Source of the DNA: Acetobacteraceae bacterium
GTDB taxonomy: Bacteria > Pseudomonadota > Alphaproteobacteria > Acetobacterales > Acetobacteraceae
Direction: 5' to 3'
DNA length: 36,601 bases
NCBI GenBank assembly: GCA_031291795.1
Contig: JARLIJ010000302.1
Location: forward strand, 1-36,601
Part shown: positions 12,928 through 29,375 of the stretch, one piece after another
How positions within the stretch are numbered: the first letter of the stretch is position 1
Layout: every line of letters begins with the position of its first letter
Notes under the pieces: generated by a model
The model's database searches: none
What the model was told of the DNA's origin: nothing
Seen by the model: the letters and a program-made list of their open reading frames with translations, nothing else
Made by a program: the position numbers and the translations under genes

Positions 12928-13027
12928 ATCTGCGAGGCAGCCAACATACGAGCGTCGTTCGGGTGGAGGTCGTGCACGCCAGTGCGCGAAGCCACCCGAC
13001 ACCTCATTTGGCCATTAGGAGATGAGG

Positions 13028-14707
13028 ATGAGAGTTGCGGCGTTCACTATGGTGTACAACGAGCCCATATTCCTGCCATTATGGTGCGGATACTACGGCC
13101 ACGCTGTCGGTGAAGAAAATCTGTTTGTGCTAGACCACGGATCTAATGATGGAAGTACCGACGATCTTGGAATGGTGCAAAAGGTTCGCATTCCGCGGGT
13201 TGATAAATTCGACGAAGATCACCGGGCATCATTCATAAGCAGATTTCAAGCAACTTTGTTGAGTGCCTATGATGCAGTGGTGTTTTCTGACGTAGACGAA
13301 TTCCTGATTCCTGACCCAGAGAAATTCTCGGGGTTATCCGATTTTATTCAGCACCGATGCCCTCGCTTTGTGAACGCAGTAGGACTGGACTTGCTGCATG
13401 TTCCCGATGAAGAGGCTGGCATCGACCTGAGAGCCCCAATTCTATCGCAGAGGCATTATGTGCGGTTCTCGCCGCGTTATTGTAAGCCTCTGATCTCCAG
13501 AATTCCCCTGCTGTGGCAACCGGGCTTTCATGCTTGCGATTATCCACCAGCTATCGATCCCGATCTTTTCCTTTTCCACCTGAAGCGGATGGACCGTGAC
13601 CTGTCAGTTTCGCGTTTAAGACAATGGCGGGCGATAGAGTGGTCGGACAACTCTCTTTCGAAGGGACATGGTTATCAGACTAGGCTTGATGACCGGGAAT
13701 TTCTCGCCCGCGAGTTTCCCTTCTCAGGTGAATCCATACGATCGGTTCTTGTCGAAGGATTCGATTTTTCACCTGATATTGAGCGGCGTGCTAAATTTAG
13801 TGCCGATCTGCATCTGGACGCAGATTGCCGAATTTCCGTAATTCCCGAGAAGTTCGGGGAAAAGATAGCTATTATCCCAACAGCGTCTGCGAAGGCGTAC
13901 CTGCACCGCGCCCACAATGGCATTGGTACCGAACACGAACGCAATGATGCAGCGTCCGAGCGGCCTGTTTTGCCGCATGGCGAATGGCTACAGGACAAAC
14001 TGGTGGTTGTCGACATCGGTGCGGCGGGTGGGCTGCAACAGCCTTGGACCGGTGTGGAGGATCGTATTGTAGCAGTGATGTTTGAGCCGAATCCGATTAA
14101 GGCTGCTGAGCTACGATCGCAGCCGCATAAGTTCGCTGATCTAATCGTCGTCGAGAGTGCGCTCGGCAACCGCGACGGCACGAGGAAGCTCAACCTTACT
14201 AAGAGCTTTGGCTGTGCATCGCTCCTCACACCCAATCGTCTTTTCCTCCAGGACTATTCCGTGTGCCCTGCATTTGATGTCATCCAGACGCTTGATATCG
14301 AGATAACGTCTTACGGTAGCTTGTTCCGGTCCGGTCGCGTCCCGACTCCTGATGTCATCAAAATCGACACGCAGGGGTTCGAGTTTGAAGTGCTATTGGG
14401 CTTTGGAGATCTGTTGGGATCCTGCTTGGCGGTACAACTCGAAGCACATTTCTACCAGATCTATCAGGGGCAGAAATTGTTTGGAGAGCTTGTTGGTTTA
14501 CTTAAAGAATCTGGCCTCGTACTTAGAAGTATCAAGCCAGTAAACCATTTTGACGGAGATATCGTGGAAATCGACGCCTGGTTCACCATCTCGGAACCGC
14601 GAGAGCGCCAGCTGAGCGACGTAGATAAGTGGAAGTTCTCTGCCATTGAGAATGAGTGGGAGCTTCCCACGCGAACGAAACAATTTGCTCCGACAACCTG
14701 GGATTAG
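13028..14707 (+). CDS. Glycosyltransferase (Glyco_tranf_2_4-like) fused to FkbM-type methyltransferase
   Basis: A 559-aa two-domain protein. The N-terminal part (RVAAFTMVYNEPIFLPLW, LFVLDHGSNDGSTDD, AVVFSDVDEFLIPDP with DxD at residues 88-90) is a GT-A type glycosyltransferase of the group that starts with MVYNE. The C-terminal part from about residue 320 is an FkbM-like SAM methyltransferase: LVVVDIGAAGGLQQPW (motif I), VMFEPNP, and PDVIKIDTQGFEFEVLLGF near residue 444. It should transfer and O-methylate a sugar on a glycan. The start is the ATG at 13028, six bases after AGGAG; an ATG at 13022 overlaps that site. GC is much lower than in the flanking metabolic genes, suggesting transfer. It converges on the next gene across a hairpin. 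Confidence 0.87.
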   Translation: MRVAAFTMVYNEPIFLPLWCGYYGHAVGEENLFVLDHGSNDGSTDDLGMVQKVRIPRVDKFDEDHRASFISRFQATLLSAYDAVVFSDVDEFLIPDPEKFSGLSDFIQHRCPRFVNAVGLDLLHVPDEEAGIDLRAPILSQRHYVRFSPRYCKPLISRIPLLWQPGFHACDYPPAIDPDLFLFHLKRMDRDLSVSRLRQWRAIEWSDNSLSKGHGYQTRLDDREFLAREFPFSGESIRSVLVEGFDFSPDIERRAKFSADLHLDADCRISVIPEKFGEKIAIIPTASAKAYLHRAHNGIGTEHERNDAASERPVLPHGEWLQDKLVVVDIGAAGGLQQPWTGVEDRIVAVMFEPNPIKAAELRSQPHKFADLIVVESALGNRDGTRKLNLTKSFGCASLLTPNRLFLQDYSVCPAFDVIQTLDIEITSYGSLFRSGRVPTPDVIKIDTQGFEFEVLLGFGDLLGSCLAVQLEAHFYQIYQGQKLFGELVGLLKESGLVLRSIKPVNHFDGDIVEIDAWFTISEPRERQLSDVDKWKFSAIENEWELPTRTKQFAPTTWD

Positions 14708-14717
14708 AATACCCACC

Positions 14718-14749
14718 GGCATCCTGCAGTGTGTACACTGTAGGATGCC
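14718..14749. terminator. Long hairpin between convergent glycan genes
   Basis: The 32-base inverted repeat runs from GGCATCCT to AGGATGCC, with inner arms CAGTGT and ACACTG, one G/T mismatch and a two-base centre (GT). It starts ten bases after the stop of the glycosyltransferase-FkbM gene and lies before the stop of the opposing gene at 14866. No T-tract follows, so it may act as a bidirectional RNA-stabilising or intrinsic-like terminator. Confidence 0.6.
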
Positions 14750-14865
14750 ACGGGCAACCCGACCTTCCTGCAACGCCTTGCGGCGCTATGTCCGAGTGCA
14801 TCTCCCCCCTTCTGGTCACTGCTCAAGATAGTGTGTGACCAAAGATCGCCTGTATGGTCTCGCAG

Positions 14866-17751
14866 CTAGGACCGGAATCGGAAGTGCTCGCAAAACAGCC
14901 CCGGTTCACTCGTGATCTTGCTGCTACTCAGCATCGGAAACGAATTCCACAACCGAGCCAGCCCGCTCTCATCTAGAGAAAGCTCGGCGTATCGCTTCAC
15001 GATGCCGTCGAAATTGTACATCAGCTCTGTGGATCTGTTGTTGAGGCCGGCACATAGGACGAGACCAGTTGGCGGGCAATCGAGCAGAATGATGGTTAGG
15101 TCGGGTCGGAACTCGCGAAGAATCGGCAGAATTCGCCAGACGTCACCTGTCCAGAAGGGGCGGGTCGCTGCAGCCTCACTTTCTGGTCCGGCCTCGTGCA
15201 CTCGACCGGCCATCCTTATGTTCAGAGGCAGGCAGTCATGCAGGAGGGCAAGGGACCCAGGATGGGAATGTCGTTCGAAGTTAATGAAATCCTTCAGAAG
15301 GGCCTCAAAGTGATGCAATCCATCAAGGAAACCGAGATCGACGTCACCGACAAATGCTCTCGGATCGTGCTCCGCGAAAAAATCGTCAGACGTCATCTGG
15401 AAAAAGAAAGTTCGTGTTCTTTGCCCAGCGACGTTGCGGTCCACGAGGAATTTCGGATCGATACAGATAGCATCACACGTTATCGCCGCGATGCTATCTC
15501 CCTGATGGGTTCCGATTTCCAGGTAGGTTCGCGGGATCATTTCTTGATCAAGGAACTTTAGGAATTGGCGATAGTCTACACCGGCGTGGACGAGCCCGGC
15601 CGCGTGGTCGCGGCTGTACTTTTCCATAATGTTCCCTAGACTGCCCTTAGACGCCACCATTGGCCTACGCGTCCCCTTTTCCGAAAGCCACCAGTAATAG
15701 TCGGCCCCCTTGTCCCATTTTACCTGAGACACGTAATCGGCGCCAAACGGAATAGCGTCGCCTTCCTCGCCGTATCGATCCCCAATCAAAGTCTTATTGA
15801 TCGAAGTGTATGGGATCAGTGTTTCGATGGGTCGGTAAGGCTGCCCGAGGTATGCTGAGTACGGCTGTGAAAAAAAAGCCTCACAGGATGCGAACTGGTC
15901 TCTGTTAATTATTTGCAACGTACTTTCGGGCCAGCGGTGCCGACCGCACCACAATCCGATCCATCCCCGATCGCACGCATTGAAGAAATCGATCGCACGA
16001 TCGGTAATTAGAAACGCATCCGCTTCGATGTGGATGATCTTATCGAAGCCTTCCCTGATTGCGTACAGGACGGCATGAGAGAACGAGCGATACCACCCCG
16101 GAAACGGTTCGCCGTTGACCCGCTGTCCCCGCCGATCTGAAAAATGGTGAATGCTTACCTGTGTTCCGGCTGAGCCGGGAGCTTCGGCTGCTTCGATTGC
16201 TACATCAGGCCAGCTTGGCAAGACTGGTGAGCCATCATCTACGATGAGGACCTTGTCTGCCTTGATCCCCGAGTTAAGGACTGCCTTCAGCCATCGCTGC
16301 CAACGCTCGTCCCACTTGGCCTCGGTTGCCGCATATGAGGTGCAGAACAGCAAGGTTTTCATGTGCCGATTGTACCTCGTTTGTGACCGGCTGCTAGCGG
16401 CAGGCTCGGTAACTGTTACCACAATGGGCTCCCCGACGCCGCGGGTCTCAGCGAATCCATACTCAACTTCTGCAAGGCGGGCGAGTTCTTCCGCCACACG
16501 TGCATGGCCAGCATCATTGGGGTGTATTCCATCGCTGGAAAGACCCGGGAGGTATGTTCCGGTCAACTCGTCGCCGTCTCGCTGCCCAAGCGCTCGACCG
16601 CCATCGACCAGAAGTCCTCCTTCAGCCTGGAATTGCAGAATCCTGGAGCGCAGATCACGCCACGAATGCAGAACTTCGGCAGTCATTGTTGCCGCATCAC
16701 GGGGGAACGGCGTCAAGAATATGGGTTTCACGCCAAGCGCCCGGCATTTTTGGGCAGCCTGAAGCAGCGAGAAAAAGAATTCGCCATTCGCTTCGGCGCT
16801 GGCATGAACGCCCGCGTAAACCTCATTATAGGTCCAGCCCGGCAGCACGGCGAATGTGGGGCGGATTGCCGGGAGCAACGCGTCGAGGTGTGCAAACATC
16901 TCCTTGGATGCAATGCCCCCCACCGCACAGTTGACGAACCCGAACGGGACTGCACCAGAATACCGCTGGCCAAGGCGGGTCGTGAACTGGGCGAGGAAGT
17001 TGTTAAATCCACTTGTGGTGCCGGTACCGCTGTGGTGGCTGTCGCCAGCCACCATTCCAACAACTCCTGCACGTTCGGTTAGAAATTGCACGATCGCAAG
17101 GGGGGTCCCATTAATGGGGCTGTTGCGCTGGCATAACTCCCAACGCATTTCGCCGTTTATCGGGTTTGTAACGTAATCGGCCCCGTTGTTGTACCCACCT
17201 ATGGCATGGTCGAAACCATGATTGACGTCGATGAGCCCAGTCCAGCCGTGTCCGAGCGTACCGTTGGCATAAGTGAAGAGTTGCCCTGCCGTGGAGTTGC
17301 GCCAGCGGAGCATAAGAACATGCATGCGCGTGGCCGGATCCGGGGTTCCACTCTGCACCGGAGTCCAGTCTGTCCAGGTCCAGCGGGGTGCATTTCCGCT
17401 ACCAGGCAACGCTCCCGCCGCCGCCGGCCAAGCTGTGATCTCAGTTGGGGCTGATAAATCGGAGACGATCTCATCGGATAATGCTCCCTGCCCCGCATAT
17501 GTCAGGTGTCGCCAAGGAGTGCCACCTGTCGGGTTGACGTAATCGTTCCAAGTACTCGACGCGCACGCGGCGATCTTAGCGATGGAGTAAGGCACCATCC
17601 CTGCATTGGGAATGCCGACGCGTACAGCACGGAAGGGCGCCGCGCAGCCAACTGCCAGGACGCCTGTGCCCGCTGGGGTCGGTGCGATTTGAGGCCACCC
17701 ACTCGGTGACCAGCTTATACAATGCGTGAGTTTCGCGCCGAAAGGCCCCAT
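14866..17751 (-). CDS. Three-domain SGNH hydrolase - glycosyltransferase-like - SAM methyltransferase fusion
   Basis: A 961-aa protein. Part 1 (to about 460) is an SGNH/GDSL esterase: GMVAGDSHHSG (GDS at 236-238), the CAVGG glycine block, and SSDGIHPNDAGH (Asp/His at about 407-410). Part 2 starts at MKTLLFCTSY (464) and has VLIVDDGSP and KIIHIEADAF (EAD at 577-579), like a GT-A glycosyltransferase. Part 3 has TYLEIGTHQGDS (about 743-751), VDLGFLDGLHHFEALLKDF and LLHDCLP, like Methyltransf_24-type SAM enzymes. The start at 17751 has AAAGGA eight bases upstream; an ATG at 17787 overlaps the preceding TPR gene and would add 12 residues. Residue 464 could be an internal start (genomic 16362). It probably esterifies or deacylates, glycosylates and methylates a glycan. 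Composition is lower in GC than the flanks. Confidence 0.83.
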   Translation of the reverse strand: MGPFGAKLTHCISWSPSGWPQIAPTPAGTGVLAVGCAAPFRAVRVGIPNAGMVPYSIAKIAACASSTWNDYVNPTGGTPWRHLTYAGQGALSDEIVSDLSAPTEITAWPAAAGALPGSGNAPRWTWTDWTPVQSGTPDPATRMHVLMLRWRNSTAGQLFTYANGTLGHGWTGLIDVNHGFDHAIGGYNNGADYVTNPINGEMRWELCQRNSPINGTPLAIVQFLTERAGVVGMVAGDSHHSGTGTTSGFNNFLAQFTTRLGQRYSGAVPFGFVNCAVGGIASKEMFAHLDALLPAIRPTFAVLPGWTYNEVYAGVHASAEANGEFFFSLLQAAQKCRALGVKPIFLTPFPRDAATMTAEVLHSWRDLRSRILQFQAEGGLLVDGGRALGQRDGDELTGTYLPGLSSDGIHPNDAGHARVAEELARLAEVEYGFAETRGVGEPIVVTVTEPAASSRSQTRYNRHMKTLLFCTSYAATEAKWDERWQRWLKAVLNSGIKADKVLIVDDGSPVLPSWPDVAIEAAEAPGSAGTQVSIHHFSDRRGQRVNGEPFPGWYRSFSHAVLYAIREGFDKIIHIEADAFLITDRAIDFFNACDRGWIGLWCGRHRWPESTLQIINRDQFASCEAFFSQPYSAYLGQPYRPIETLIPYTSINKTLIGDRYGEEGDAIPFGADYVSQVKWDKGADYYWWLSEKGTRRPMVASKGSLGNIMEKYSRDHAAGLVHAGVDYRQFLKFLDQEMIPRTYLEIGTHQGDSIAAITCDAICIDPKFLVDRNVAGQRTRTFFFQMTSDDFFAEHDPRAFVGDVDLGFLDGLHHFEALLKDFINFERHSHPGSLALLHDCLPLNIRMAGRVHEAGPESEAAATRPFWTGDVWRILPILREFRPDLTIILLDCPPTGLVLCAGLNNRSTELMYNFDGIVKRYAELSLDESGLARLWNSFPMLSSSKITSEPGLFCEHFRFRS

Positions 17752-17779
17752 ATTGGCGGTCCTTTCGCTTGGAGACAGC

Positions 17780-18727
17780 TTAATCATTTGTGACGGCGAT
17801 CTGAGAGAGTGCCTCTGAAGGAACATACCGCGCCGCATCTATCAAAACCATCCCAAGTGTCTCTTGGTCTCCCGTTAGTCGCAGAAGCCGTGCGCTATTA
17901 TCGTAGGCTGGAGCGAACGTCGGAAAGCGCCGCCTTACGTCAGCCCATCTTATGATTGCCTCCGAAACATCTCCTCGAAGTTCTGCTATTTGCGCCAGTT
18001 GTGCGCCAACGTCGGGTTCGGACCAGAACGTCCCTTTGATCCTCTGAAGATAAGTCTCAGCGTCATCAAGCTGGCCGAGGGCAATCATTGCGCGTGCTTC
18101 ACCGACGACGCCAAACACATGATGAAAACGTTCGCTTACCTGTCGCCACCGCGACAGCGCCTGTTTCCAGTCACGTGTGGCCTCAGCGATGCGTGCAAAT
18201 TCCAGCCAAGCTTGAATGTTGGCCGGAAACCTGGAGGTGGCTTGATTGATTAACACTTCGGCATCCTCCAAACGCCCGAGTTCCCGCAGACAGCGACCTG
18301 CGTTTACATATGCCGTCCAACGCCTTGGAAATCTCCTGCGCACGCGGCGCCAACGGTCGGTGGCCTCTACCAAATCTCCCCGATGCTCAGCGACCAAGGC
18401 ATAGCCCTCGGCGTAGCGTGCTTCCCGCGGCGCGTGCTTTTGTCCCTCCATCATCATCGCTTCAGCCTCTTCAAACAGCTTGAGGCCGAGGAGGACTTCG
18501 ATAGTAACGGGCGCTTGCTTCACGTAAGTTGGGTATCGTGTCCGCGCGGAGTTCCAATACTCCAAGGCCGACGTCAGATCGCCCAACTGCAAGGCTACCT
18601 TTGCGAGATGTAGCGGGTTGGCATCAGATAGCGCTATCTCCGAAGCTTCCTCCTTCTGAAGCGTGCGCATCTCCTTCATTGCCCTCCGCAATGTCAGCCA
18701 GGTCCGTAAGCTGCCGAACATCTTCAT
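17780..18727 (-). CDS. Tetratricopeptide-repeat protein in glycan locus
   Basis: A 315-aa all-helical protein with several TPR-like units from about residue 40 to the end. Examples are LHLAKVALQLGDLTSALEYWNSARTRYP, RDWKQALSRWRQVSERFHHVFG and GDVSEAIIRWADVRRRFPTFAPAYDN (each a partial reading of a 34-residue repeat). W-R-x-V-R-R-R-F-P recurs at the end of units. No signal peptide is seen. I used the ATG at 18727; a TTG at 18733 and an ATG at 18721 are possible and no site has a strong Shine-Dalgarno. The stop overlaps the ATG at 17787 of the fusion gene downstream, so they are likely co-transcribed. Probably a protein-protein scaffold; exact role unknown. Confidence 0.8.
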   Translation of the reverse strand: MKMFGSLRTWLTLRRAMKEMRTLQKEEASEIALSDANPLHLAKVALQLGDLTSALEYWNSARTRYPTYVKQAPVTIEVLLGLKLFEEAEAMMMEGQKHAPREARYAEGYALVAEHRGDLVEATDRWRRVRRRFPRRWTAYVNAGRCLRELGRLEDAEVLINQATSRFPANIQAWLEFARIAEATRDWKQALSRWRQVSERFHHVFGVVGEARAMIALGQLDDAETYLQRIKGTFWSEPDVGAQLAQIAELRGDVSEAIIRWADVRRRFPTFAPAYDNSARLLRLTGDQETLGMVLIDAARYVPSEALSQIAVTND

Positions 18728-18782
18728 GCGCAATGCGTTCGGGGTCTATAAGCTGCTGGCACGCTAGGCTGCATCGCACCCC

Positions 18783-19932: not shown

Positions 19933-20109
19933 TCAGCGCGACAGGAACGGCGTGCCGGTCCGGATGCGCGCCCGCCAGTCGTCCAGCAGGTCGTCCGTCG
20001 TCTGCTCGAAGCTGTGCAGCGGGGCCCAGCCGGTGTGGGCGCGGAACTTGCGGGTGTCCGGCACCTGGCGGTCGCCGGCTCCGGCCGAAGCTGCGGCGGC
20101 GCGTGTCAC
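19933..20109 (-). pseudogene. 3' remnant of an NAD-dependent sugar epimerase/dehydratase
   Basis: On the minus strand a frame ending at the TGA at 19933-19935 reads GDRQVPDTRKFRAHTGWAPL, then a helix with DDLLDDWRARI and the end RTGTPFLSR. The D-T-R-K-F-x-x-x-T-G-W pattern followed by a final helix is the standard C-terminus of extended SDR sugar-nucleotide epimerases/dehydratases. Only about 50 residues remain; upstream the frame runs straight into the stop of the large SGNH-like gene (20106-20108). The nucleotide-binding half and the YxxxK site are missing. So this looks like a decayed or replaced gene between hddA and its neighbour. A GTG at 20109 overlapping that stop could still express a 58-residue peptide. 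Confidence 0.7.
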
Positions 20110-22559
20110 GCCGCGCCGAGAAGGTCGCGGAGCAGGTCGGCCAGGACCGCTGCCGCCACCATGCAGCCGTGATTGTTCGGGTGGCGGTGGTCGCCGCTGT
20201 CGCAGTCCGGGCGATACGCGCGGGGCGAGGCGCCGGCGCCCCAGAGCGCGTCCAGGTCGAGGACCGGCGTGTTCGCGCCCGCGAACCCGCGCACGCGCTC
20301 GATCACCGCACGGCGGGCCGCATCGGCGCGCGCGTCGGCCACCAGCGCCGGGGCGGCGGTCACCAGGATCGGAACGCCACCGAACCGCCGCGTCGCCTCC
20401 GCCAGCGCGATGGCGCGGGCCAGGCCCGCCTCCGCGGAATCCTGGGTCGGCGGATCGTTGGCCGACCAGGTCTGGATCAGCGTCACCTGCGGCTGCAGCG
20501 TCTCGATCGCCCAGCGTCCGGCGCGGGCGTAGCGGTCGGACGCGTGTTCGTCATGGCCCTCATTGAACCAGCTGACCGGCAGGTCCGGCCGGGACACCGC
20601 TGCGCAGGCTCGCATCCCGAACCCGCTGACCTGCCCGGAGGACCCGATCCCCCGCATCACGCCATCGCCGATCCCGACCACGGTCGCGCCGGGCATCGCC
20701 GTGATGTACTGCAGGCCGTGGCACGCCGACACCCGATCGAATCGGTGCCAGGGGCCGTTCCAATCCGGCTGGGTGGCGTTCCCATGGGTCCAGTAGCCGC
20801 CAGCCAGACAGCCCGTTGCCTCGTCCGGTCGGCCGTCGAAGCTGGCGTAGCGCTGCAGGCCGGCACTGTGGCTGCGCACCAGCACCAGGGCTCCGCGGCC
20901 GCCATCCACCCGCGCGGTGCCGGGCAGGCTGACCCAATCCGACACCGCCCGCACCGGATCGGCCGCATCGGTGCAAGCCGGCAGGGCGAGCGTGTCGGCC
21001 CCGGCGTCGATCGGGTCCAGCGGTTCGCCTGCCGGCCCGTGACGGAACGTCAGCCGGTGCCAGGCGGTCGTGCCGTCCTCGGCGCGCGGATCGACCGGCG
21101 TCACCTCGTCATGCGGCGCGCCGGTTACGGCAATGGCGGCGCCGTCGAGGCGGTAGGGCTCGTTCTGGTCGTTGAAGAAGAACAGCCGCGCCCAGAATGG
21201 CGGTGCTTCGAGGTGCAGCAGGTTGGAAAACGACCGGTCCGGCCCGTTGCTGCTTTCGTGACGGCCATTCTGCAGTCGAAACCCCAGCCGGGGTGACAGC
21301 GCCACGCGGCGCGACGAGCGAGGGCCGAACGGCACGCGTGCAACGGCCTCCCCGGGGGCGCTGCCTGCGTCGGATCCCGCGACAGCTGCCATCCCGCTGC
21401 CCGTGCCGGACACCGCAACGGCTGCCGGCTCGCCATTTTCGTCCGACACCGCAACGGCCGCTGTCGCCTTCGTCGCCGCCTGCGGTCCGGCGATTGGTCC
21501 ACCCGGCGCCTCGAACAGGTCCGGCCACACCAGTGCCTGCGCCGCGCGGCAGATCGCCAGCCACTGGTCCGCCAGGAAGTCGTGGGCGTTCTCGCCGGGC
21601 GCGAAGCGCGCGATATGGCCGACCAGGAAGCCGGGTTCGCGGCGCTCGACCGTGCCCGGCGGGTGCGCCGCATCCGCCAGCTTCACGTAAAGCAGCGTGT
21701 TCGGCCCCCAGCGGCGCAGGGCCGGCAGCAGCGGATAGACGATGCTGTCCGGCTCCCCGCCGCGTTCCTTGCGGACGAAGATCTTGTGCCCCGTCTCCAG
21801 GTCCTCGGTCAGTTTGCGGATCAGGAACGGCATGCGGCGGATCTCGCGCCGGTGCACGGCCTCGGCCGGCATCTCCTCGGTCTTCACCCAGGCGTGGTAG
21901 TGCAGCCCGTAGACCCGGTCGGTGACCATGTATTCGCGGCCGTTTTCGGACACCGACACGACCAGCTTGTCCGGTGTCCCCGCGCCCGCGAAGCCGCTGG
22001 CCAGCGCGTGCAGCAGGCTTTGCAGGTTCGTGCTGGCGAACCGCAGCAAGCCGAGCGGCTCTGCGCCGGCGGCGCGCTGGGCGAGGCCGAACTCGCAGTT
22101 CTCGCCCAGGCTTTCGAACCGCAGCAGCGTGGCGCGGTCCGACGGGTCGGTCTCTCCCGGGGGCGCCGGCGCGGCCTCGATGTCCGGCTGGAGCACGATG
22201 GCCCCCAGCGCCACCGGCCCATCGTCGAGATGCAGCATGATCGGCAGCACGGGGCCGCCCGCCAGCAGCGCGGCCGGGATGCGGCCGGCCCCCACGATCC
22301 GGTCATCGACGGTGAACTGCGCCACCTCGCTGCCCCGCACCGACACCCGCACTCGCCGCGGGGTCATGTCCGGGCGCACCAGCATCCGCAGCAGGACGAA
22401 GTGGTCGACCGCCTGGGCCGGGGTCGGCACCACCAGCGTGGCGGTGGGGGCCTTGGTCCAGGTGTCGACCTCGGTGGGCGACTCCCAGTCCTTGCCCAGG
22501 ACCGGCCGAGTGCCGCTGTTCCGGCCCAGATCGTAGATCAAACGTTCGACTGGCGGCAT
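20106..22559 (-). CDS. Large SGNH-like protein with altered GDS motif, glycan-locus protein
   Basis: An 817-aa protein. After an N-terminal region (about 1-140) comes LLRFESLGENCEFG (about 145-158) with LGLLRFAS, a domain seen in alphaproteobacterial glycan-related proteins. A Gly/Ala-rich linker follows. The C-terminal quarter is SGNH-like: VVGIGDGVMRGIGSSG (GDG at 631-633), IQTWSANDPP (Asn of block III) and GDHRHPNNHG (Asp and His of block V). The nucleophile Ser expected in GDS is Gly, so it may be inactive as an esterase. The start is the ATG at 22559, with GGAG six bases upstream; a longer frame to 22907 is the shadow of the phosphoesterase gene. It ends exactly where the epimerase remnant begins. 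Confidence 0.82.
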   Translation of the reverse strand: MPPVERLIYDLGRNSGTRPVLGKDWESPTEVDTWTKAPTATLVVPTPAQAVDHFVLLRMLVRPDMTPRRVRVSVRGSEVAQFTVDDRIVGAGRIPAALLAGGPVLPIMLHLDDGPVALGAIVLQPDIEAAPAPPGETDPSDRATLLRFESLGENCEFGLAQRAAGAEPLGLLRFASTNLQSLLHALASGFAGAGTPDKLVVSVSENGREYMVTDRVYGLHYHAWVKTEEMPAEAVHRREIRRMPFLIRKLTEDLETGHKIFVRKERGGEPDSIVYPLLPALRRWGPNTLLYVKLADAAHPPGTVERREPGFLVGHIARFAPGENAHDFLADQWLAICRAAQALVWPDLFEAPGGPIAGPQAATKATAAVAVSDENGEPAAVAVSGTGSGMAAVAGSDAGSAPGEAVARVPFGPRSSRRVALSPRLGFRLQNGRHESSNGPDRSFSNLLHLEAPPFWARLFFFNDQNEPYRLDGAAIAVTGAPHDEVTPVDPRAEDGTTAWHRLTFRHGPAGEPLDPIDAGADTLALPACTDAADPVRAVSDWVSLPGTARVDGGRGALVLVRSHSAGLQRYASFDGRPDEATGCLAGGYWTHGNATQPDWNGPWHRFDRVSACHGLQYITAMPGATVVGIGDGVMRGIGSSGQVSGFGMRACAAVSRPDLPVSWFNEGHDEHASDRYARAGRWAIETLQPQVTLIQTWSANDPPTQDSAEAGLARAIALAEATRRFGGVPILVTAAPALVADARADAARRAVIERVRGFAGANTPVLDLDALWGAGASPRAYRPDCDSGDHRHPNNHGCMVAAAVLADLLRDLLGAA

Positions 22560-22668
22560 CGGCACTCCACATCGTTGCCCGGGGGCCGGGCAGGTGGCTG
22601 TGCGGTTCTTCTTAAGGGATAAAACGGGTCCTGCGGTAAGTCTGATTGATGGAAGGGACGCGTCGGGG

Positions 22669-23163
22669 ATGACGGTGTTCTTCACGGCCGACACGCATTT
22701 CGGCCATGCCGGCGCCCGCACGCTGTATCGGCGGCCGTTCGCCTCCACCGCCGAGATGGACGCGGCGATGGAAGCGCGCTGGAACGAAGCGGTGGGGCCG
22801 GACGACGAGGTGTGGCACCTGGGCGACTTCGCGCTGCGCATGGTGCCGGAGGCGATGGGGGCGTTGCTGGGCCGGCTGAACGGCCACAAGCACCTGATCA
22901 CCGGCAATAACGATCTGCCGGCGACCCTTGCCTTGGCGGGATGGGACAGCGTGCAGCCCTATGTGGAGCTGGAGCAGGAGGGCATGCGGCTGGTGCTGTG
23001 CCACTACGCCTTCCGCACCTGGAACGGCATGGCCAAGGGCGCGCTGAACCTGCACGGCCACAGCCACGGCCGGCTCAAGCCGCTGCCGCGCCAGGTCGAT
23101 GTAGGCGTGGATGTCTGGGATTTCAGGCCGGTGACGCTGGGGACGATCCTGGCGAGGCGGTAG
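22669..23163 (+). CDS. Calcineurin-like metallophosphoesterase
   Basis: A 164-aa single-domain metallophosphoesterase. The metal-binding motifs appear in order: DTHFGH (Asp8, His10), HLGDFA, GNND in place of the usual GNHD/E, LCHYAF, and HGHSHG. The start is the ATG at 22669 (MTVFFTADTHFGHAG); the longer frame from 22594 lacks support. It is divergent from the SGNH-like gene, with about 110 bases between the starts. The small size suggests a YfcE-like or nucleotide/phosphodiester phosphatase role. The specific substrate is unknown. It converges on the SDR gene across a strong hairpin. Confidence 0.9.
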   Translation: MTVFFTADTHFGHAGARTLYRRPFASTAEMDAAMEARWNEAVGPDDEVWHLGDFALRMVPEAMGALLGRLNGHKHLITGNNDLPATLALAGWDSVQPYVELEQEGMRLVLCHYAFRTWNGMAKGALNLHGHSHGRLKPLPRQVDVGVDVWDFRPVTLGTILARR

Positions 23164-23296
23164 GTGAGTGAAGGCGGCGGGCGCGGGTGAGTTGGACGGC
23201 CTGATGGGTCGAACGCGGCGGTTCGGCTCTGGGCCGCCTTACCGCCCGACCCGGCGGGGTGCCGAATGTCCGATTGTCCCGAAATCGGCTGCAGCC

Positions 23297-23332
23297 CCAC
23301 GGTGCGGCGGCTCTGTCGCCGCCGCACCGTGG
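23297..23332. terminator. Perfect 15-bp stem hairpin between convergent genes
   Basis: The arms CCACGGTGCGGCGGC (23297-23311) and GCCGCCGCACCGTGG (23318-23332) pair perfectly over 15 bases with a six-base loop, TCTGTC. It lies six bases downstream of the SDR stop (minus) and 133 bases after the phosphoesterase stop (plus). No T-tract is seen on either side. It most likely ends transcription of the SDR gene, perhaps in both directions. Confidence 0.75.
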
Positions 23333-23338
23333 ACAGGC

Positions 23339-24208
23339 TCAGGCAGTCGGTCGGAACGTCTCCGGCAACCGCAGATCCGTCCGCGTTCCTTGGGCCGCGG
23401 CCGAGACCGGCGCCCACTTGTCCCAGGTTGCCAGGCGGTCCTCGTAGATCTTGCGCAGCATCGGAACGGCTGTCGCGCCCAGCAGGAGACGTAGCGGCGG
23501 TTCTGCGGCGTCCACCACTGTAAAGATTGCCTCGGATGTCGCCTGGGGATCCCCCATGCTCTCTGCGGCGAACGCCGCGAAAAGCTGTTCCTTGATCGGA
23601 TTGTAGGCCGGCATGGGGGAGGCAGCCCGGATGGAGCTTGGATCGGCGAAATCTGTCGCATAGCCGCCTGGCTCAATCAGCGTGACTTTGATGCCGAAGG
23701 CCGCCACCTCCTGCGACAGGGCGTCCATCAATCCTTCCAGTGCCCATTTGGACGCGTGATACATGCCCACGGTGGGGAACGCGCCCACGCCGCCGATGCT
23801 GGAGACGGCCAGGATATGGCCGGATTTCTGCGCCCGCAGGATCGGCAGCGCCGCCTGCGTCACCCAAAGCGCACCAAACAGGTTGGTCTCGATCTGGGCG
23901 CGCACCTCGGCCTCACTGAGTTCCTCGACGGCGCCAAGCTGGCCGTAGCCGGCATTGTTGAGGACGATATCCAGCCGCCCGAATGCGTCCTTTCCTTTCG
24001 CGACGGCCGCGAAGGCCGCGGTCCGGTCGGTGACATCCAGCGCCAACGGCAGGACCGAATCCCCGTAGGCCGCCACAAGCGGTTGCAGCACAGCCGGATT
24101 GCGCGCCGTCGCGACGACTTTGTCCCCCCGCTTCAGCGCCGCCTCGGCCCAGACCCGGCCGAAACCGCGCGAGGAACCTGTGATGAACCATACTTTTCCG
24201 TCGGACAT
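23339..24208 (-). CDS. SDR family oxidoreductase (classical short-chain dehydrogenase)
   Basis: A 289-aa classical SDR. It has the cofactor motif TGSSRGFG (10-17), NNAG (84-87), the catalytic Ser in AVSSIGG (136/137) and YHASK (Tyr150, Lys154), then the usual IEPGGYATDF. An Arg at residue 36 of ATARNP after the second strand favours NADP(H). The start is the ATG at 24208, seven bases after AAGGAGG on the minus strand; an ATG at 24214 touches that site. It is divergent from the TetR gene, with two palindromes between them, and is probably repressed by it. The substrate cannot be named. Confidence 0.93.
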   Translation of the reverse strand: MSDGKVWFITGSSRGFGRVWAEAALKRGDKVVATARNPAVLQPLVAAYGDSVLPLALDVTDRTAAFAAVAKGKDAFGRLDIVLNNAGYGQLGAVEELSEAEVRAQIETNLFGALWVTQAALPILRAQKSGHILAVSSIGGVGAFPTVGMYHASKWALEGLMDALSQEVAAFGIKVTLIEPGGYATDFADPSSIRAASPMPAYNPIKEQLFAAFAAESMGDPQATSEAIFTVVDAAEPPLRLLLGATAVPMLRKIYEDRLATWDKWAPVSAAAQGTRTDLRLPETFRPTA

Positions 24209-24236
24209 GATCATCCTCCTTCTCAGAAACCCTGAC

Positions 24237-24267
24237 GTCCTGACATTATACGGTATTATGTCAGGAC
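24237..24267. promoter_or_regulatory. Inverted repeat, putative TetR operator 1
   Basis: The arms GTCCTGACAT (24237-24246) and ATGTCAGGAC (24258-24267) are perfectly complementary over ten bases with an 11-base AT-rich centre. It lies in the intergenic region between the SDR and TetR genes, 29 bases from the SDR start. The inner TGACAT / ATGTCA half-sites recur in the second palindrome at 24278-24300. A TetR binding site is the natural reading. Confidence 0.75.
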
Positions 24268-24277
24268 TCTGACGAGA

Positions 24278-24300
24278 TGACATTCCCTGAGGGAATGTCA
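24278..24300. promoter_or_regulatory. Inverted repeat, putative TetR operator 2
   Basis: The arms TGACATTCCC (24278-24287) and GGGAATGTCA (24291-24300) are perfect over ten bases with a three-base centre, TGA. It ends 11 bases before the TetR start codon, a position fit for autorepression. It shares TGACAT / ATGTCA with the first palindrome. Confidence 0.78.
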
Positions 24301-24311
24301 AGATAAGGGGC

Positions 24312-24890
24312 ATGAACGAATCGGCGGCACCCCCATCCAAGCGACAGCGCGCCATCGAGGCGGGCGCGCGCGTCTTCCTGCGCTTCGGCTTCGCGCGGGC
24401 GACCATGGGCGACATCGCGCAGGCGGCCGGCATGTCGCGGCCCGCGCTCTACCTGATCTTTTGCAGCAAGGAGTTGGTGTTCGAGGCCGTTGTCGCCCAA
24501 TGGATCGAGGATAGTCTGGCGCGGATCGCCGCCGGCCTCGCCACCCGCTCCACACTCGGTGAGAAACTCCGCTTCGCCTGCGAGATCTGGTGCGTGGAGG
24601 GGCTGGAACGGGCTCTTGCCAGCCCGGACGTGCGCGACATGAGCGGGCTGCCCGCGGTGCGGAAAAGCTACGCTCGCTTCGAGGCCTGCCTGACCGACAT
24701 CCTGCAGGCGGCAGCCGCGCGGTCGGACCTTGGCATTACGGCCGGTGATCTGGCGCGGGTGATCGTCTCCGCCATGCAGGGTTTCAAACAGACCGCCCGG
24801 AGCGGCGAGGAGATGCGGCACCTGATCGCTGTCCAGATCATGGCAATCGAACGCGCCCTGGTCTCCTGTCCGCGATCAGGCGGACGCTGA
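24312..24890 (+). CDS. TetR/AcrR family transcriptional regulator
   Basis: A 192-aa TetR-type repressor. The N-terminal helix-turn-helix is RAIEAGARVFLRFGFARATMGDIAQAAGMSRPALYLIFCSKELVF (read in pieces, about residues 14-58); the variable C-terminal ligand domain follows. The ATG at 24312 has AAGGGG only one base upstream, an unusually tight spacing, but no better start is in frame. It is divergent from the SDR gene. Two palindromes with shared half-sites in the 103-base gap suggest it represses itself and the SDR gene, with release by an unknown ligand. Confidence 0.92.
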   Translation: MNESAAPPSKRQRAIEAGARVFLRFGFARATMGDIAQAAGMSRPALYLIFCSKELVFEAVVAQWIEDSLARIAAGLATRSTLGEKLRFACEIWCVEGLERALASPDVRDMSGLPAVRKSYARFEACLTDILQAAAARSDLGITAGDLARVIVSAMQGFKQTARSGEEMRHLIAVQIMAIERALVSCPRSGGR

Positions 24891-25160
24891 TCTTTCCCGT
24901 CGGATGATCAACACACGGCTCACCTGCATGTCTCCGGACTGAGGAGTCATTGTCAGGGAGGGCAGAAACACCTCGAGGGTCTGCCTGCCGTCGCACAGGG
25001 TGGGAAGCCGCCGTAATTGCCGTGGTCCGGAAAGGTCTGCTGTGACCACCAATGCGGCCATCCGAATCTTGCCTGGGACTCGATGACACCGGGCAGGCTT
25101 GGCCGAAACAAACTATCTGCTTCTGAGGATATCATCCGAACAGCTGGAATCCTTGCGTCA

Positions 25161-25169
25161 TGCTATAAT
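25161..25169 (+). promoter_or_regulatory. Extended -10 promoter-like element upstream of tcmP
   Basis: TGCTATAAT matches the extended -10 consensus TGnTATAAT exactly and lies 128 bases before the tcmP start. No good -35 box is seen at the usual distance, which extended -10 promoters can lack. In a GC-rich genome such a match is rare by chance, but activity is unproven. Confidence 0.5.
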
Positions 25170-25253
25170 GCTGCCGAATATTGGGAATTTCTTAGTGCGG
25201 CGCTATCAAGATGGAACGGGATAGGACACGTCTTGTTGCCCGATCTTCGATTG

Positions 25254-25268
25254 ATGTTCTCAGAACAT
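25254..25268. promoter_or_regulatory. Perfect palindrome before tcmP, putative operator
   Basis: ATGTTCT (25254-25260) and AGAACAT (25262-25268) are perfect seven-base arms around one base. It lies between the extended -10 element and the tcmP start (25297), where a bound repressor could block elongation or translation. GTTC-N3-GAAC resembles, but does not match, known LexA-type boxes. Confidence 0.55.
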
Positions 25269-25296
25269 GGTACCGTAACAGCAGAGTGACAAACGC

Positions 25297-26229
25297 ATGA
25301 CGAGGGCGGCGGCGGACCGGGGGCATCGGTTCGGAGGTGCGTGGACAGAGGTAAAGCTCGACGCTGTCCACTACTATCTCCGGTTTTTCACGCGAGTACT
25401 GAAGGACCAGCCGACGCCTCACCAGCCTTTCGAACTCTGGTACATTGATGCCTTTGCGGGCAGCGGGTCCCGCCGTATCGATCGTACAACCGGTGGACTG
25501 TTCGAAGGCGAGCCCTTGGGGGAGGAGACGGTCGATCTTGCCGGATCGGTGCTGCGCGCCCTCGACGTCGATCCGCCGTTCAAGCGCCTCGTCTTCATCG
25601 AGGAGAACCGCGACCGCTTTCGCTGCCTGGAGGAGATCGCCGCAGCGTACCCGGAACGGAACATCACACCATTCCGGGGAGACACAAATACCAAGCTGCA
25701 GGAGATCTTCGGCGCGCCGCCTTGGTCTCTGCAGCACGATGGGCGCGGGTCGCATCGTGCAATAGTCTTCCTAGATCCATTTGGCATGTCCGTTAAGTGG
25801 GAGACATTGAAGCAGCTCGCCGAGACCGGCGCCGTGGACGTCTGGTATCTTTTTCCGACAGGCGCAGTGAACCGACAGCTGGCGGGCAACTTCGCCAAGG
25901 TTGACGAGCACAAACAGCGCGCGCTTGACGAGGTGTTCGGCTCGACTGCCTGGCGGGAGGACATCTACAAGGTCAAGACCGATCGGGGGCTGTTCGACGA
26001 AGTGATCACCACCGCCAGCAAGACCTTCACCGTCGACCAGATCGAGCGCTACGCCCAGGATCGATTGAAGATGATTTTTGCGTATGTTTCGGACCCGCTG
26101 CCGCTGCTGAACGATCGGGACTCGAAGATATTCTCACTCTTCTGCCTGTCGAACAGCCCGAGCCAGAAGGCGCTCGGACTCATCAGGAATGGAGTGAGAT
26201 CGGTTCTGAAGAAGTTCGCGGGTCGGTAG
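25297..26229 (+). CDS. tcmP: Three-Cys-motif partner protein TcmP
   Basis: A 310-aa protein of the TcmP family, named because its gene usually sits beside a three-cysteine (Gp37/Gp68-like) protein gene, as here. ELWYIDAFAGSGS (about 47-58) looks like the SAM-binding motif I of a Rossmann methyltransferase, and AIVFLDPFGMSVKW (about 155-168) like the DPFG/DPP motif IV. The family function is not established. The start is the ATG at 25297; ribosome site weak. The stop lies inside the opposing DUF5131 gene (47-base 3' overlap). Upstream are an extended -10 element and a palindrome. A nucleic-acid modification or defence role is inference from motifs and phage links of the partner. Confidence 0.88.
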   Translation: MTRAAADRGHRFGGAWTEVKLDAVHYYLRFFTRVLKDQPTPHQPFELWYIDAFAGSGSRRIDRTTGGLFEGEPLGEETVDLAGSVLRALDVDPPFKRLVFIEENRDRFRCLEEIAAAYPERNITPFRGDTNTKLQEIFGAPPWSLQHDGRGSHRAIVFLDPFGMSVKWETLKQLAETGAVDVWYLFPTGAVNRQLAGNFAKVDEHKQRALDEVFGSTAWREDIYKVKTDRGLFDEVITTASKTFTVDQIERYAQDRLKMIFAYVSDPLPLLNDRDSKIFSLFCLSNSPSQKALGLIRNGVRSVLKKFAGR

Positions 26230-26959
26230 GCATTTCATCATAGGTCCGACCGTTGAACGTGCGGCCGGCCGCCTTCTTGTTCCGGCCGCCCCACTGCTTG
26301 AAGAAGAAGGCCGCGCCGGCGTCGCGGCACAGCTCCTCAATCTCTGACACCCACTCGGCCAGCATTGGTCGCGCGCGCGGGCCGCTCTCCCCGCCCACGA
26401 TCGCCCAGTCGATGTCCCGCAGGTCGGTGCCTGCGACGCTGCCGATCAACGGCTCGAAGGAGATGAACCGGACTGCCGCTGGCGCACGCCGCAATTCTTC
26501 GATGCGGCCGAGCACGGCGTTGTCCTCGATGCTGGTGCCGATCCACACGTTCGGCAGCACCGGAAAGTCCGGACGGGACAGCACCTCGTACATCCGCTCC
26601 GGACGCTTCGTGAGTACCTGGTATGTGTGCTGTGGGGTCGCCTTCATGACCCCCCAGACCTTGGCGATGAACTCCGGCTCTACCGACGCGTGGAAAAGGT
26701 CGGACATGCTGTTGACGAACACCGTGCGCGGTTTGCGCCAAGTCAGGGGCGCCGCTAGCGCTTTCTCGTCTTGCACGACCGTGCCGGTCCAGACGTACCG
26801 CTCGCCGCTCTTCCGTGTTAAGCCCTGATACTTCGGGGTGCCCATCGCCTCCAGCCGGGCGGCCATACGCATGGCATAGCAGTTGGTGCAGCCCGCGGTC
26901 GCGATGGTACAGCCGGCGACCGGGTTCCAGGTGACGTCCGTCCACTCGATCTTCGACAT
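26183..26959 (-). CDS. Phage Gp37/Gp68-like three-cysteine protein (DUF5131)
   Basis: A 258-aa protein starting SKIEWTDVTWNPVAGC with C-x6-C-x2-C (Cys17, 24, 27), then NSMSDLFHASV, YQVLTKRPERM, NVWIGTSIED and ISFEPLIGSV. This is the Gp37/Gp68 family first seen in mycobacteriophages, related in motif layout to radical-SAM-like proteins; its reaction is unknown. The last part has GGESGPRARPM and FFFKQWGG. The start is the ATG at 26959, with GAGG about nine bases upstream; earlier ATGs at 26968 and 26974 are less well placed. It converges on tcmP with overlapping 3' ends. The three cysteines may hold a metal or iron-sulfur cluster. Confidence 0.9.
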   Translation of the reverse strand: MSKIEWTDVTWNPVAGCTIATAGCTNCYAMRMAARLEAMGTPKYQGLTRKSGERYVWTGTVVQDEKALAAPLTWRKPRTVFVNSMSDLFHASVEPEFIAKVWGVMKATPQHTYQVLTKRPERMYEVLSRPDFPVLPNVWIGTSIEDNAVLGRIEELRRAPAAVRFISFEPLIGSVAGTDLRDIDWAIVGGESGPRARPMLAEWVSEIEELCRDAGAAFFFKQWGGRNKKAAGRTFNGRTYDEMPTDPRTSSEPISLHS

Positions 26960-27236
26960 CCGCGTCATCCTCATGGCTCCAGGCGAAGAACGGATAGAGA
27001 ACATAACAGTTTTACGCAGCGTGCCGCACCCTAATTCCGGTCGCGGCTAGGCGCTATGGCAAGAGTTGGGTGGAAGCGGACGTTTCGCTCGCCTCTGAGG
27101 AACGGCGGCTATGGGGCGTCGGCAGGCAATCGAATCACCCCACCGTCAATGGTCCGCGCCACCCCGCCCGATCCGGACCAACGTGTTACCCTCCGCCTCA
27201 GGCACACCCACTCCCGTCCCGTCCAGGAGGCTCCAA

Positions 27237-29255
27237 GTGCAAACAATCCGGACCGTCTGCGCCCATGATTGCCCCGACATGTGCTCGCTGCTGGTGCAGG
27301 TCGACCAGGGCCGCGTCGTCCGCGTGGAGGGCGATCCCGACCATCCCTTCACCGCCGGGTTCGCCTGCGGCAAGGTCAACCGCAACGCGGACCTGGTGCA
27401 CTCCCCGCAGCGCCTGACCACCCCGCTGCGCCGCACCGGCCCCAAGGGCACCGGCCAGTTCGCGCCGATCACCTGGGACGAAGCGCTCGACACCATCACC
27501 GCAAACTGGCGCCGCATCATCGCCGAGACCGGCCCGCTGGGCATCCTCGGCTACGCCTATAGCGCCCATCAGGGCCTGATGAACCGCGGCCTGTTCAACG
27601 GGCTGTTCCATGCCCTCGGCGTCACCCGGCTCTGGGGCGGCACGGTCTGCGATTCCTGCGCCGAGGCCGCCTGGGACGCCGCCGTCGGCCCGATCGGCGG
27701 CGCCGACCCGGACTCCGTCACCGAATCGGACCTGGTGGTCTGTTGGGGCGCCGACCTGCACGCCACCAACGTCCACCTCTGGGCGAAGATCGAGCAGGTC
27801 CGCAAGCGCGGCGTCAAGCTGATCGTGATCGACCCGCGCCGCACCCGCGCGGCCGCCACCGCCGACCTCTACCTCCCCATCCGCATCGGTACCGACGCCG
27901 CCCTGGCGCTCGGCGTCATGCATATCCTGGCGCGCGACGGCAAGGTGGACCGCGCCTACCTCGCCGCCCACACACTGGGCTTCGAGCGCGTGGAAGCCGA
28001 AATCCTGCCGCGCTTCACCCCCGCCTATGTCGCTGCAATCACCGGCCTGCCAATCGCCGACATCGAGCGCTTCGCCGCGCTGTACGGCGATGCCCCGCGC
28101 GCGTTCATCCGCATCGGCTTCGGCATGAGCCGCTTCACCCATGGCGGGCAGGCCCTGCGCACCGTGGCGCTGCTCCCCGGCGTCACCGGCGCCTATGGCC
28201 GCTACGGCGGCGGCGCGTTGGTCGCCACCGCGGCCTCGTTCGGGCTGAACTACAATGCGATCCGCAAGCCGTCCGGCCCGGCCAGCGTGCGCACCATCAA
28301 CCACCTGAAGCTGGGCGAGGCGCTGCTGGAGGCCTCCGCCCCGCCGATCCGCGCGCTGTTCATCGCCGCCAACAACCCCGCCGTGACCAATCCCGACACC
28401 GCCCGCATCCGTGCGGGCCTGGCGCGGGAGGACCTGTTCACGGTCGTCCATGACCCGTTCCTGTCCACCACCGCGCGCTATGCCGACATCGTCCTGCCGG
28501 CCACGACCTACCTGGAGACCGAGGATTTCTACCGCGCCTATGGCACCTACTACATGCAATGGGGCCACCAGGCGGTCGAACCGCAGGGCGAGGCCTGGTC
28601 GAATTTCCGCCTCACCCAGGCGCTGGCCCAGCGCATGGGCCTGAACGATCCGGTGTTCCACATGACTCAGCGGGAGATCCTGGGCGAGCTGTTCCGCGGC
28701 GCCACCGGTCCGTTGGCGAATATCGACCCCGCCACGCTGCCGGATGCCGGCCCGATCTCGATCGGCACGCGGGACGGCCAGGCCTTCCGCACGCCTTCCG
28801 GCAAGCTGGAGTTCTACTCCGCCACGCTGGAGGCCCAGGGCCTGCCGCCGCTGCCCGACTGGCAGCCGGACCCCGAACAGGCAAAGCAGGCCGGGCCGCA
28901 CAGCCTGCAACTGCTGACTACGCCAGGGTATTTCCAGAGCCACACGGCGTTCTCGGGCGTGGCGTTCCTGCGCCAGCGCGAAGGCGCGCCCTGTGCCGTG
29001 CTGCATCCGTCCGATGCGCAGGCCCGCGGCCTTGTCGATGGCCAGAAGGTCAGGCTGGCGAACGACCGCGGCACCGTCGGTCTCGTGCTGCGCGTGCAGG
29101 AGGAGGTGCAGCCGGGCGTCGTCCTGGTACCCGGCCAGCGTCCGGACGAAGACGCGCTGGAGGGCACCGTCAACATGCTCTGCGGCGACGGCATCACCGA
29201 CATGGGGGAGGGCGCGACCTACCAGAGCACCTGGCTGGAAGTGCGCCCCTGGTAA
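27237..29255 (+). CDS. Molybdopterin oxidoreductase (bis-MGD, [4Fe-4S] catalytic subunit-like)
   Basis: A 672-aa DMSO-reductase superfamily protein. The N-terminal cysteines C-x3-C-x3-C-x27-C (Cys8, 12, 16, 44) should bind a [4Fe-4S] cluster. Next come GGTVCDSCAEAAWDAAVG near the active site, SDLVVCWGADLHATNVHLW, KLIVIDPRRTRAAATADLYLPIRIGTD (read in pieces), and ADIVLPATTYLE; the C-terminal molydop-binding domain ends in YQSTWLEVRPW. The start is the GTG at 27237, with AGGAGG seven bases upstream; earlier in-frame codons give non-native residues. No twin-arginine signal and no electron-transfer or membrane subunit gene is adjacent, so it is probably a cytoplasmic stand-alone enzyme. Substrate unknown. 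Confidence 0.9.
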   Translation: MQTIRTVCAHDCPDMCSLLVQVDQGRVVRVEGDPDHPFTAGFACGKVNRNADLVHSPQRLTTPLRRTGPKGTGQFAPITWDEALDTITANWRRIIAETGPLGILGYAYSAHQGLMNRGLFNGLFHALGVTRLWGGTVCDSCAEAAWDAAVGPIGGADPDSVTESDLVVCWGADLHATNVHLWAKIEQVRKRGVKLIVIDPRRTRAAATADLYLPIRIGTDAALALGVMHILARDGKVDRAYLAAHTLGFERVEAEILPRFTPAYVAAITGLPIADIERFAALYGDAPRAFIRIGFGMSRFTHGGQALRTVALLPGVTGAYGRYGGGALVATAASFGLNYNAIRKPSGPASVRTINHLKLGEALLEASAPPIRALFIAANNPAVTNPDTARIRAGLAREDLFTVVHDPFLSTTARYADIVLPATTYLETEDFYRAYGTYYMQWGHQAVEPQGEAWSNFRLTQALAQRMGLNDPVFHMTQREILGELFRGATGPLANIDPATLPDAGPISIGTRDGQAFRTPSGKLEFYSATLEAQGLPPLPDWQPDPEQAKQAGPHSLQLLTTPGYFQSHTAFSGVAFLRQREGAPCAVLHPSDAQARGLVDGQKVRLANDRGTVGLVLRVQEEVQPGVVLVPGQRPDEDALEGTVNMLCGDGITDMGEGATYQSTWLEVRPW

Positions 29256-29259
29256 ACCC

Positions 29260-29282
29260 AACGGGCGAACGCACGGCCCGTT
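29260..29282. terminator. Short hairpin after molybdopterin gene
   Basis: AACGGGC (29260-29266) and GCCCGTT (29276-29282) form a seven-base perfect stem with a nine-base loop, five bases after the molybdopterin stop. An alternative pairing, CGAACG with CGTTCG, overlaps it. No T-tract follows; a weak terminator at best. Confidence 0.4.
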
Positions 29283-29375
29283 CGGCGCGGCGCATGTGCT
29301 GCCAGCAGTGTTATCGTACCCTGTCCGGTCAACCGATGGCCGATCGCCCGCCCGACCGGAAGCAAGGTAACGCGG

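Follow-up and report, generated by a model that had tools for sequence, protein, structure and literature searches.

Among the described systems closest to the gene pair treated here are two families of radical S-adenosylmethionine (SAM) proteins, TIGR04471 (radical SAM mobile pair protein A) and the PA0069 family (NF033668), the class I methyltransferases RlmJ (PF04378) and RsmD (PF03602), the Hna anti-phage system of Sinorhizobium meliloti, and the LexA/SOS regulon of Alphaproteobacteria, for which excerpts of PMC12700426 and PMC9578287 give GTTC-N7-GTTC as the Caulobacter SOS box. The pair itself, TcmP (three-Cys-motif partner) and DUF5131 (Gp37/Gp68), is listed in the PADLOC database as PDC-M41, an entry that carries no description. 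Both proteins are encoded side by side in the window, by which we mean the whole stretch of 36,601 bases that was analysed, one entire contig (C131) of an Acetobacteraceae bacterium whose assembly is incomplete (4.87 Mb, 68.8% complete). The mentions of TcmP or DUF5131 found in excerpts of the literature are table entries only, one of which labels a phage protein 'ssDNA-annealing protein', and nothing on the pair was found in the available parts of PMC7641849, PMC13381803, PMC10853773 and PMC13384398.

We propose that the pair constitutes a mobile nucleic-acid-modifying module of two enzymes, induced by DNA damage, a reading to which we assign a probability of about 0.45. Hereby, a unit of about 1.8 kb would combine a radical-SAM-like DUF5131 and a class I methyltransferase-like TcmP with a common nucleic-acid target. 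In many Alphaproteobacteria, the window included, LexA would probably repress the DUF5131 transcription unit, and the SOS response to damaged DNA would switch it on. DUF5131 would then generate a 5'-deoxyadenosyl radical from SAM at a [4Fe-4S] cluster bound by Cys17, Cys24 and Cys27 and act on a base, and TcmP would methylate this base or one beside it. The conserved core would be represented by DUF5131 and the varying part, which probably sets the target, by TcmP, and their joint action would presumably benefit the host.

The pair is real and is catalogued as candidate PDC-M41, without a described reaction. TcmP matches TIGR04474 with E = 8.1e-50 and 170.2 bits (curated cut-off 53), DUF5131 matches PF07505 with E = 3.6e-94 and 315.2 bits (curated cut-off 28.9), and both scores thus lie above the cut-off. 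The two PADLOC matches are strong, with E = 3.7e-77 for TcmP and E = 2e-102 for DUF5131, and the genes are adjacent, as the features collected in Table 1 show; the protein handled as P0002 has an additional match to PDC-M30B. DUF5131 is read from its ATG at 26959 to the stop at 26183 on the minus strand, within a longer open reading frame (ORF) that begins at 27004. A first-pass annotation, made from the letters of the window without database searches, had described a convergent pair sharing 47 bases, with a C-x6-C-x2-C motif in one protein and DAFAGSGS and LDPFG motifs in the other. All of this is present, the overlap in ORFs and sequence alike and the motifs at C17/C24/C27, residues 51-58 and residues 159-163, respectively. 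Its view of the pair as an undescribed system is not supported in that form, as PADLOC already contains both proteins.

Table 1. Coordinates of the TcmP-DUF5131 locus and its associated elements in the window.
Feature	Position	Strand	Basis
Travelling unit, ~1.8 kb	25277..27079	.	blastn and edge alignment against L061
TcmP (three-Cys-motif partner), 310 aa, class I methyltransferase-like	25297..26229	+	TIGR04474, PADLOC PDC-M41A, profile match to RlmJ and RsmD
Tail-to-tail overlap of both coding sequences, 47 nt	26183..26229	.	stop codons in sequence
DUF5131 / Gp37-Gp68 three-Cys protein, 258 aa, radical-SAM-like	26183..26959	-	PF07505, PDC-M41B
LexA/SOS-type box GTTCTCTATCCGTTC, beginning 43 nt upstream of the DUF5131 ATG (26959)	26988..27002	-	exact GTTC-N7-GTTC

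Pairing was surveyed in 385 genomes of the class and in 80 genome loci selected by similarity to the window TcmP, two samples that may share genomes (e.g. G306:C1 and L074). Both families are common in the class sample: TcmP scores above the cut-off 30 times, in 29 genomes, after exclusion of six matches below the cut-off (any match: 35 genomes), and 54 genomes contain DUF5131, which has 58 places in total. Of the 30 TcmP places, 29 have a DUF5131 gene no more than 2 kb away, the sole miss being situated at a contig start, which bears out the earlier statement that the two families are usually neighbours; TcmP in turn stands beside 29 of the 58 DUF5131 places. As to gene order, DUF5131 comes first in 20 of these 29 pairs and TcmP in 5, so that 25 are co-directional and 4 convergent. 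Both genes are found at 76 of the 80 genome loci (54 convergent, four of which have a further TcmP between the two genes, 18 TcmP-first, 2 DUF5131-first and 2 divergent), three of the misses being truncated by a contig end and one, L126, a true absence. Among 80 viral contigs with DUF5131, TcmP is present in 35, 17 of which are convergent. Compared over 57 pairs, the mean distance is 0.45 for DUF5131 and 0.63 for TcmP, i.e. DUF5131 is the conserved and TcmP the variable partner, and the distances of the two correlate (r = 0.27, reached by 0 of 999 permutations). A long and a short TcmP gene both stand near a single DUF5131 at seven of the 80 genome loci (L068, L084, L087, L090, L095, L130 and L137) and likewise on S. 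meliloti pSymA (L292), which would suit a role of TcmP as an interchangeable targeting component. Many DUF5131 proteins of the 45 viral loci without TcmP (within L141-L220) are longer, reaching 391 aa. Their neighbours include small numbers of recurring DNA methylases of the C5, D12 and N6/N4 types (150 of 158 neighbour ORFs scanned).

The new point compared to the first-pass annotation is a likely LexA/SOS control of DUF5131, as judged from its upstream sequence. The promoter region of the window DUF5131 contains an exact box of the alphaproteobacterial LexA/SOS regulon. In the closest TcmP relative of the genome collection (80% identical), which belongs to an Acetobacteraceae metagenome bin (L061), both halves of the box, GAAC-N7-GAAC on the DUF5131 promoter side, are kept and the N7 has diverged. 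A box of the same form, GTTCTCTTATAGTTC, is located upstream of recA of this genome (L382), the lexA start of which falls at a contig edge. Among 29 Acetobacteraceae genomes, 15, this one included, have GTTC-N7-GTTC at recA, and 13 of 20 lexA loci of the class share it, a lower bound because several lexA loci matched the model only partly. A tetramer dyad scan covering 150 nt of upstream sequence for each of 39 alphaproteobacterial DUF5131 genes, the window included, ranks overlapping forms of GTTC-N7-GTTC first; the scan was limited to upstream bases, start-codon words ranking first when 20 nt of coding sequence were added. The exact box occurs in 12 of these 39 upstream regions compared to 11 of 336 others (p = 1.8e-7; this and the following p-values for the box are optimistic because the rows are related), and spacers of N3-N6 and N8-N14 yield 0 or 1 site. 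Without the window and L061, where the box was first noticed, the count is 10 of 37 (p = 4e-6). In a second, Pfam-selected sample that excludes the window, 11 of 29 genes carry the box, with a mean of 0.11 and a maximum of 2 in 1000 shuffles. Taken together, both samples give 23 of 68 alphaproteobacterial DUF5131 genes (p = 3e-12 against the 11 of 336 others), or 21 of 66 when the window and L061 are removed; the 68 rows are different proteins, and genes with less than 100 nt of upstream sequence were excluded here as in the lexA, recA, viral, beta/gamma and Bacillus-type box counts. Of the 23 boxes, 17 begin between -45 and -26 and 21 run in the direction of the gene. They are distributed over several clades, with at least 13 changes on the tree (this and the orientation tree used below are quick ones, and L130 forms a very long branch). 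Where TcmP leads the unit (L011), the box precedes TcmP, and in the convergent loci L062, L063 and L073 it precedes both genes. No link of the pair or of DUF5131 to LexA was found in the literature searches made. A Bacillus-type GAAC-N4-GTTC, considered for the non-alphaproteobacterial genome loci, was rejected as too weak (TcmP 3/43, DUF5131 1/36, others 2/290; p = 0.017 for TcmP); its occurrences upstream of TcmP in L123 (Bacilli), L100 (Chloroflexota) and L139 (Myxococcia) are suggestive with weak statistics.

The mobility of the pair is apparent from a comparison with L061. Within positions 23001-29300 of the window, 25277-27079 is the sole block common to both (82% DNA identity), the flanks giving no match by blastn. 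The nearest orthologues of the downstream oxidoreductase are found in two other genomes of the family from which the pair is absent; these do not represent a clean empty site, as the other window neighbours sought are also missing there. Because of this single shared block and of the oxidoreductase orthologues without the pair, we take the pair to move as a unit of about 1.8 kb. At its edges no direct or inverted 9-base repeat was detected, 8-base ones being present. The pair further resides on 10 plasmid records and in two cyanophage records, of which Yong-M2-251, the record inspected, shows annotated genes with a tail-to-tail overlap of 46 nt.

Such a distribution could also reflect a phage-defence system in the strict sense, in which PDC-M41 would halt phage replication by tagging, detecting or changing nucleic acid of the invader or the host, with SOS control as one trigger. 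The inclusion of both proteins in PADLOC, the patchy spread over 29 of 385 genomes, and the occurrence on plasmids and in 35 of 80 viral DUF5131 loci are in line with this explanation, which we regard as possible, if doubtful. It also draws on the neighbourhood of Hna. The excerpt of PMC12445080 places SMa2245 (Hna) next to SMa2243 (TcmP), and for this reason the 852-aa ORF of S. meliloti pSymA (L292), with TcmP directly downstream on the same strand, is taken as the presumed validated defence gene hna; a 46%-identical Hna-like protein follows TcmP-DUF5131 in a Bdellovibrionales bin (L116). However, Hna is an unrelated protein, and a relative of it is located near only 1 of 160 loci. The search for defence-island genes that the first-pass annotation had suggested likewise yielded few defence matches among 139 flanking ORFs from the 80 loci, a set that excludes ORFs above 900 aa and was compared without a control set. 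Among the 25 listed of 65 matching PADLOC families, none matches more than 2 of the 139, and the Pfam matches are mixed, many of them metabolic. Moreover, two phage records bear the pair themselves, which argues against a role in stopping phage.

For DUF5131, the window protein was aligned with 79 of 154 listed sequences (A4), the lists of both families themselves excluding short or split sequences. Cys17, Cys24 and Cys27 are present in all 80, so that the conservation on which the first-pass annotation had staked its proposal is confirmed, and Cys211 is present in 77. The C-x6-C-x2-C spacing is retained in 79, the remaining sequence having escaped the search pattern, and the GGE at 189-191 is conserved at every position in at least 79 of the 80. 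All 80 proteins match TIGR04471 at E <= 0.5, the best at 3.7e-31. Compared to the PA0069 family, hhalign returns a probability of 65.5% and places NPVAGC-TIATAG-CTNC over NPYRGC-EHG-CVYC, so that the three Cys of DUF5131 fall on CxxxCxxC. DUF5131 differs from PA0069 and TIGR04471 by three extra residues between the first and the second Cys and by its methyltransferase-like partner.

Of the two radical SAM families tried, the DUF5131 profile matches PA0069, which we take to be SplB-like, and not MoaA. SplB-like radical SAM proteins are present in SOS gene neighbourhoods according to an excerpt of PMC3765255. Together with the LexA-type box, this likeness is consistent with DNA-lesion processing, whereby the SOS-controlled pair would reverse or tolerate a damaged base like spore photoproduct lyase, with TcmP as partner. 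We consider such a role unlikely, given that the pair is patchy, mobile and phage-borne, that the TcmP partner evolves fast, and that no repair family is prominent among the neighbour families listed.

TcmP displays the hallmarks of class I SAM methyltransferases, i.e. a motif I glycine loop (DAFAGSG, 51-57), an acidic residue (102) and the D-P of motif IV (LDPFG, 159-163). In an alignment of the window TcmP with 97 of 120 listed sequences (A3; long TcmP and near copies excluded), D160, P161, F/Y162, E/D102 and G55 are conserved in 98 of 98 and D51 in 97 of 98; the SAM-site residues, which the first-pass annotation had singled out for inspection, are hence conserved. The TcmP profile matches RlmJ with an hhalign probability of 93.9 and RsmD with 93.3, aligned from motif I to motif IV, compared to 17.8 for N6/N4 DNA methylases and 0.07 for the PA0069 and MoaA radical SAM controls. 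Motif I, the acidic loop and the D-P of motif IV align with both families and the GS motif also with RlmJ, and a weak likeness to Trm1 (PF02005) is seen. TcmP differs from RlmJ and RsmD by its DPF/YG, a C-terminal region of its own and the near-constant DUF5131 neighbour (29/30). It thus appears methyltransferase-like, a classification supported at the profile level only.

RlmJ and RsmD, the best TcmP profiles among those tried, are rRNA methyltransferases, and single TcmP members weakly match RlmJ (4/98, best E 5.6e-4) or the tRNA family Trm1 (5/98, best E 0.05). The module could accordingly be RNA-directed, methylating and radically modifying an rRNA or tRNA base upon damage and so slowing or reprogramming translation. 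To us this is an improbable alternative, as kinship of profiles leaves the substrate undefined. Near unpaired viral DUF5131 genes it is moreover DNA methylases that recur (PF00145 4, PF02086 2 and PF01555 2 of 150 ORFs), alongside AAA_25 (5), DnaB (4) and integrase (4).

Several observations weigh against the damage-inducible, nucleic-acid-modifying module that we favour. The window DUF5131 reaches TIGR04471 with E = 1.7e-19 and 70.2 bits, below the cut-off of 355, and its family matches PA0069 at just 65.5 and MoaA at 0.31, though PA0069 and MoaA reach 93 when compared with each other; its Cys spacing is non-standard compared to the canonical C-x3-C-x2-C. The window TcmP has no Pfam methyltransferase match, PF04378 included, and motif IV reads DPF/YG instead of DPPY, so that both marks of the RlmJ family are absent from it. 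Member-wise Pfam matches are few (RlmJ 4, Trm1 5, RsmD 3 of 98), and the unrelated family BTG matches as many members (5/98). A solved-structure search with sequence and profile gave no significant match, the two best for the profile being 2oo3 at E 0.13, presumably RlmJ-like, and the methylase 2fhp at E 0.3. As for the box, the exact form is missing in 45 of 68 alphaproteobacterial DUF5131 genes, in all 4 unpaired class loci and upstream of the window TcmP, which has a one-mismatch site only, and it occurs in 1 of 81 viral DUF5131 upstream regions, the hosts of which were not identified. None of 17 beta/gamma loci carries an exact E. coli-type SOS box, and with one mismatch allowed it is found there for DUF5131 in 1/17, TcmP in 1/22 and others in 1/130. 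Because DUF5131 matches TIGR04471 and PA0069, scores 0.31 against MoaA and has three extra residues in its Cys motif, we call it radical-SAM-like, which is plausible from its sequence, without counting it as an established member. The two-part enzyme of the first-pass annotation, a radical-SAM-like protein with a methyltransferase, is plausible and gains strength at the level of profiles, less surely on the radical-SAM side.

The tail-to-tail overlap is a recurrent property of the convergent arrangement. It is found in 66 of 67 convergent TcmP/DUF5131 pairs of relatives, with lengths of 4-89 nt in all three phases, whereas 20 of 81 other convergent ORF pairs at the same genome loci overlap (Fisher p = 9e-23, an optimistic value given the relatedness of the rows and the crude ORF calls). 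Orientation requires no fewer than 8 changes on a tree of 110 DUF5131 rows, compared to a shuffled mean of 38.5, and one clade of 52 rows includes 50 convergent ones. Among the convergent pairs, a minimum of 40 changes in overlap length and of 16 in phase is needed. In the 32 convergent pairs common to A3 and A4, to which the window belongs, 74-101 nt separate the final conserved leucine of TcmP from the final conserved proline of DUF5131. As length and phase drift and the core spacing persists, tight packing appears to be the conserved feature, and the overlap would be compact packing inherited by this branch that follows largely from geometry.

The first-pass annotation had instead seen in the overlap a possible dosage control by antisense RNA at both 3' ends, which would set the ratio of the two proteins. 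The near-universal overlap of convergent pairs and their seldom-changing orientation would suit such a regulator, as would the lack of a terminator-like site in the overlap (one lies at 26310-26333, 1.8 being expected by chance). Nevertheless, an overlap that varies in length and phase, and a core-to-core spacing that leaves scant room without one, mean that packing alone suffices, and 25 of the 29 class pairs are co-directional. Antisense control is hence not supported, and on sequence grounds we hold it to be quite improbable. Among the known RNA families searched, none was found in the overlap. A GTTC-N7-GTTC inside it, at 26203-26217, was discarded, being absent there in L061 and of a kind expected by chance (97 sites per 2.0 Mb of loci).

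Elsewhere in the window, positions 11881-18733 form a low-GC stretch (ORFs of 51-58% GC compared to 66% for the window) encoding glycosyltransferase/FkbM methyltransferase, GDSL/methyltransferase and TPR proteins, which looks like an acquired glycan cluster. A 933-aa ORF at 20109-22907 on the minus strand has a coding-like GC3 of 0.88; at the limits applied, neither Pfam nor PADLOC gave a match to it. An imuA-imuB-dnaE2 cluster at the right end of the window was considered and dropped, the frames tested having no Pfam match.

In conclusion, the LexA-type box makes an orphan pair testable: it predicts when the genes are on, and therefore the condition under which their product should be sought. 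A wider idea, which we put forward tentatively and with more doubt than the module itself, is that an SOS-inducible pair of radical SAM enzyme and methyltransferase acts together to introduce or erase an undescribed DNA or RNA modification in bacteria and viruses alike. If this were true, the pair would bring new chemistry into the DNA-damage and phage response, and should the radical SAM and methyltransferase roles hold, it would amount to a novel chemistry on nucleic acids that is coupled to DNA damage.

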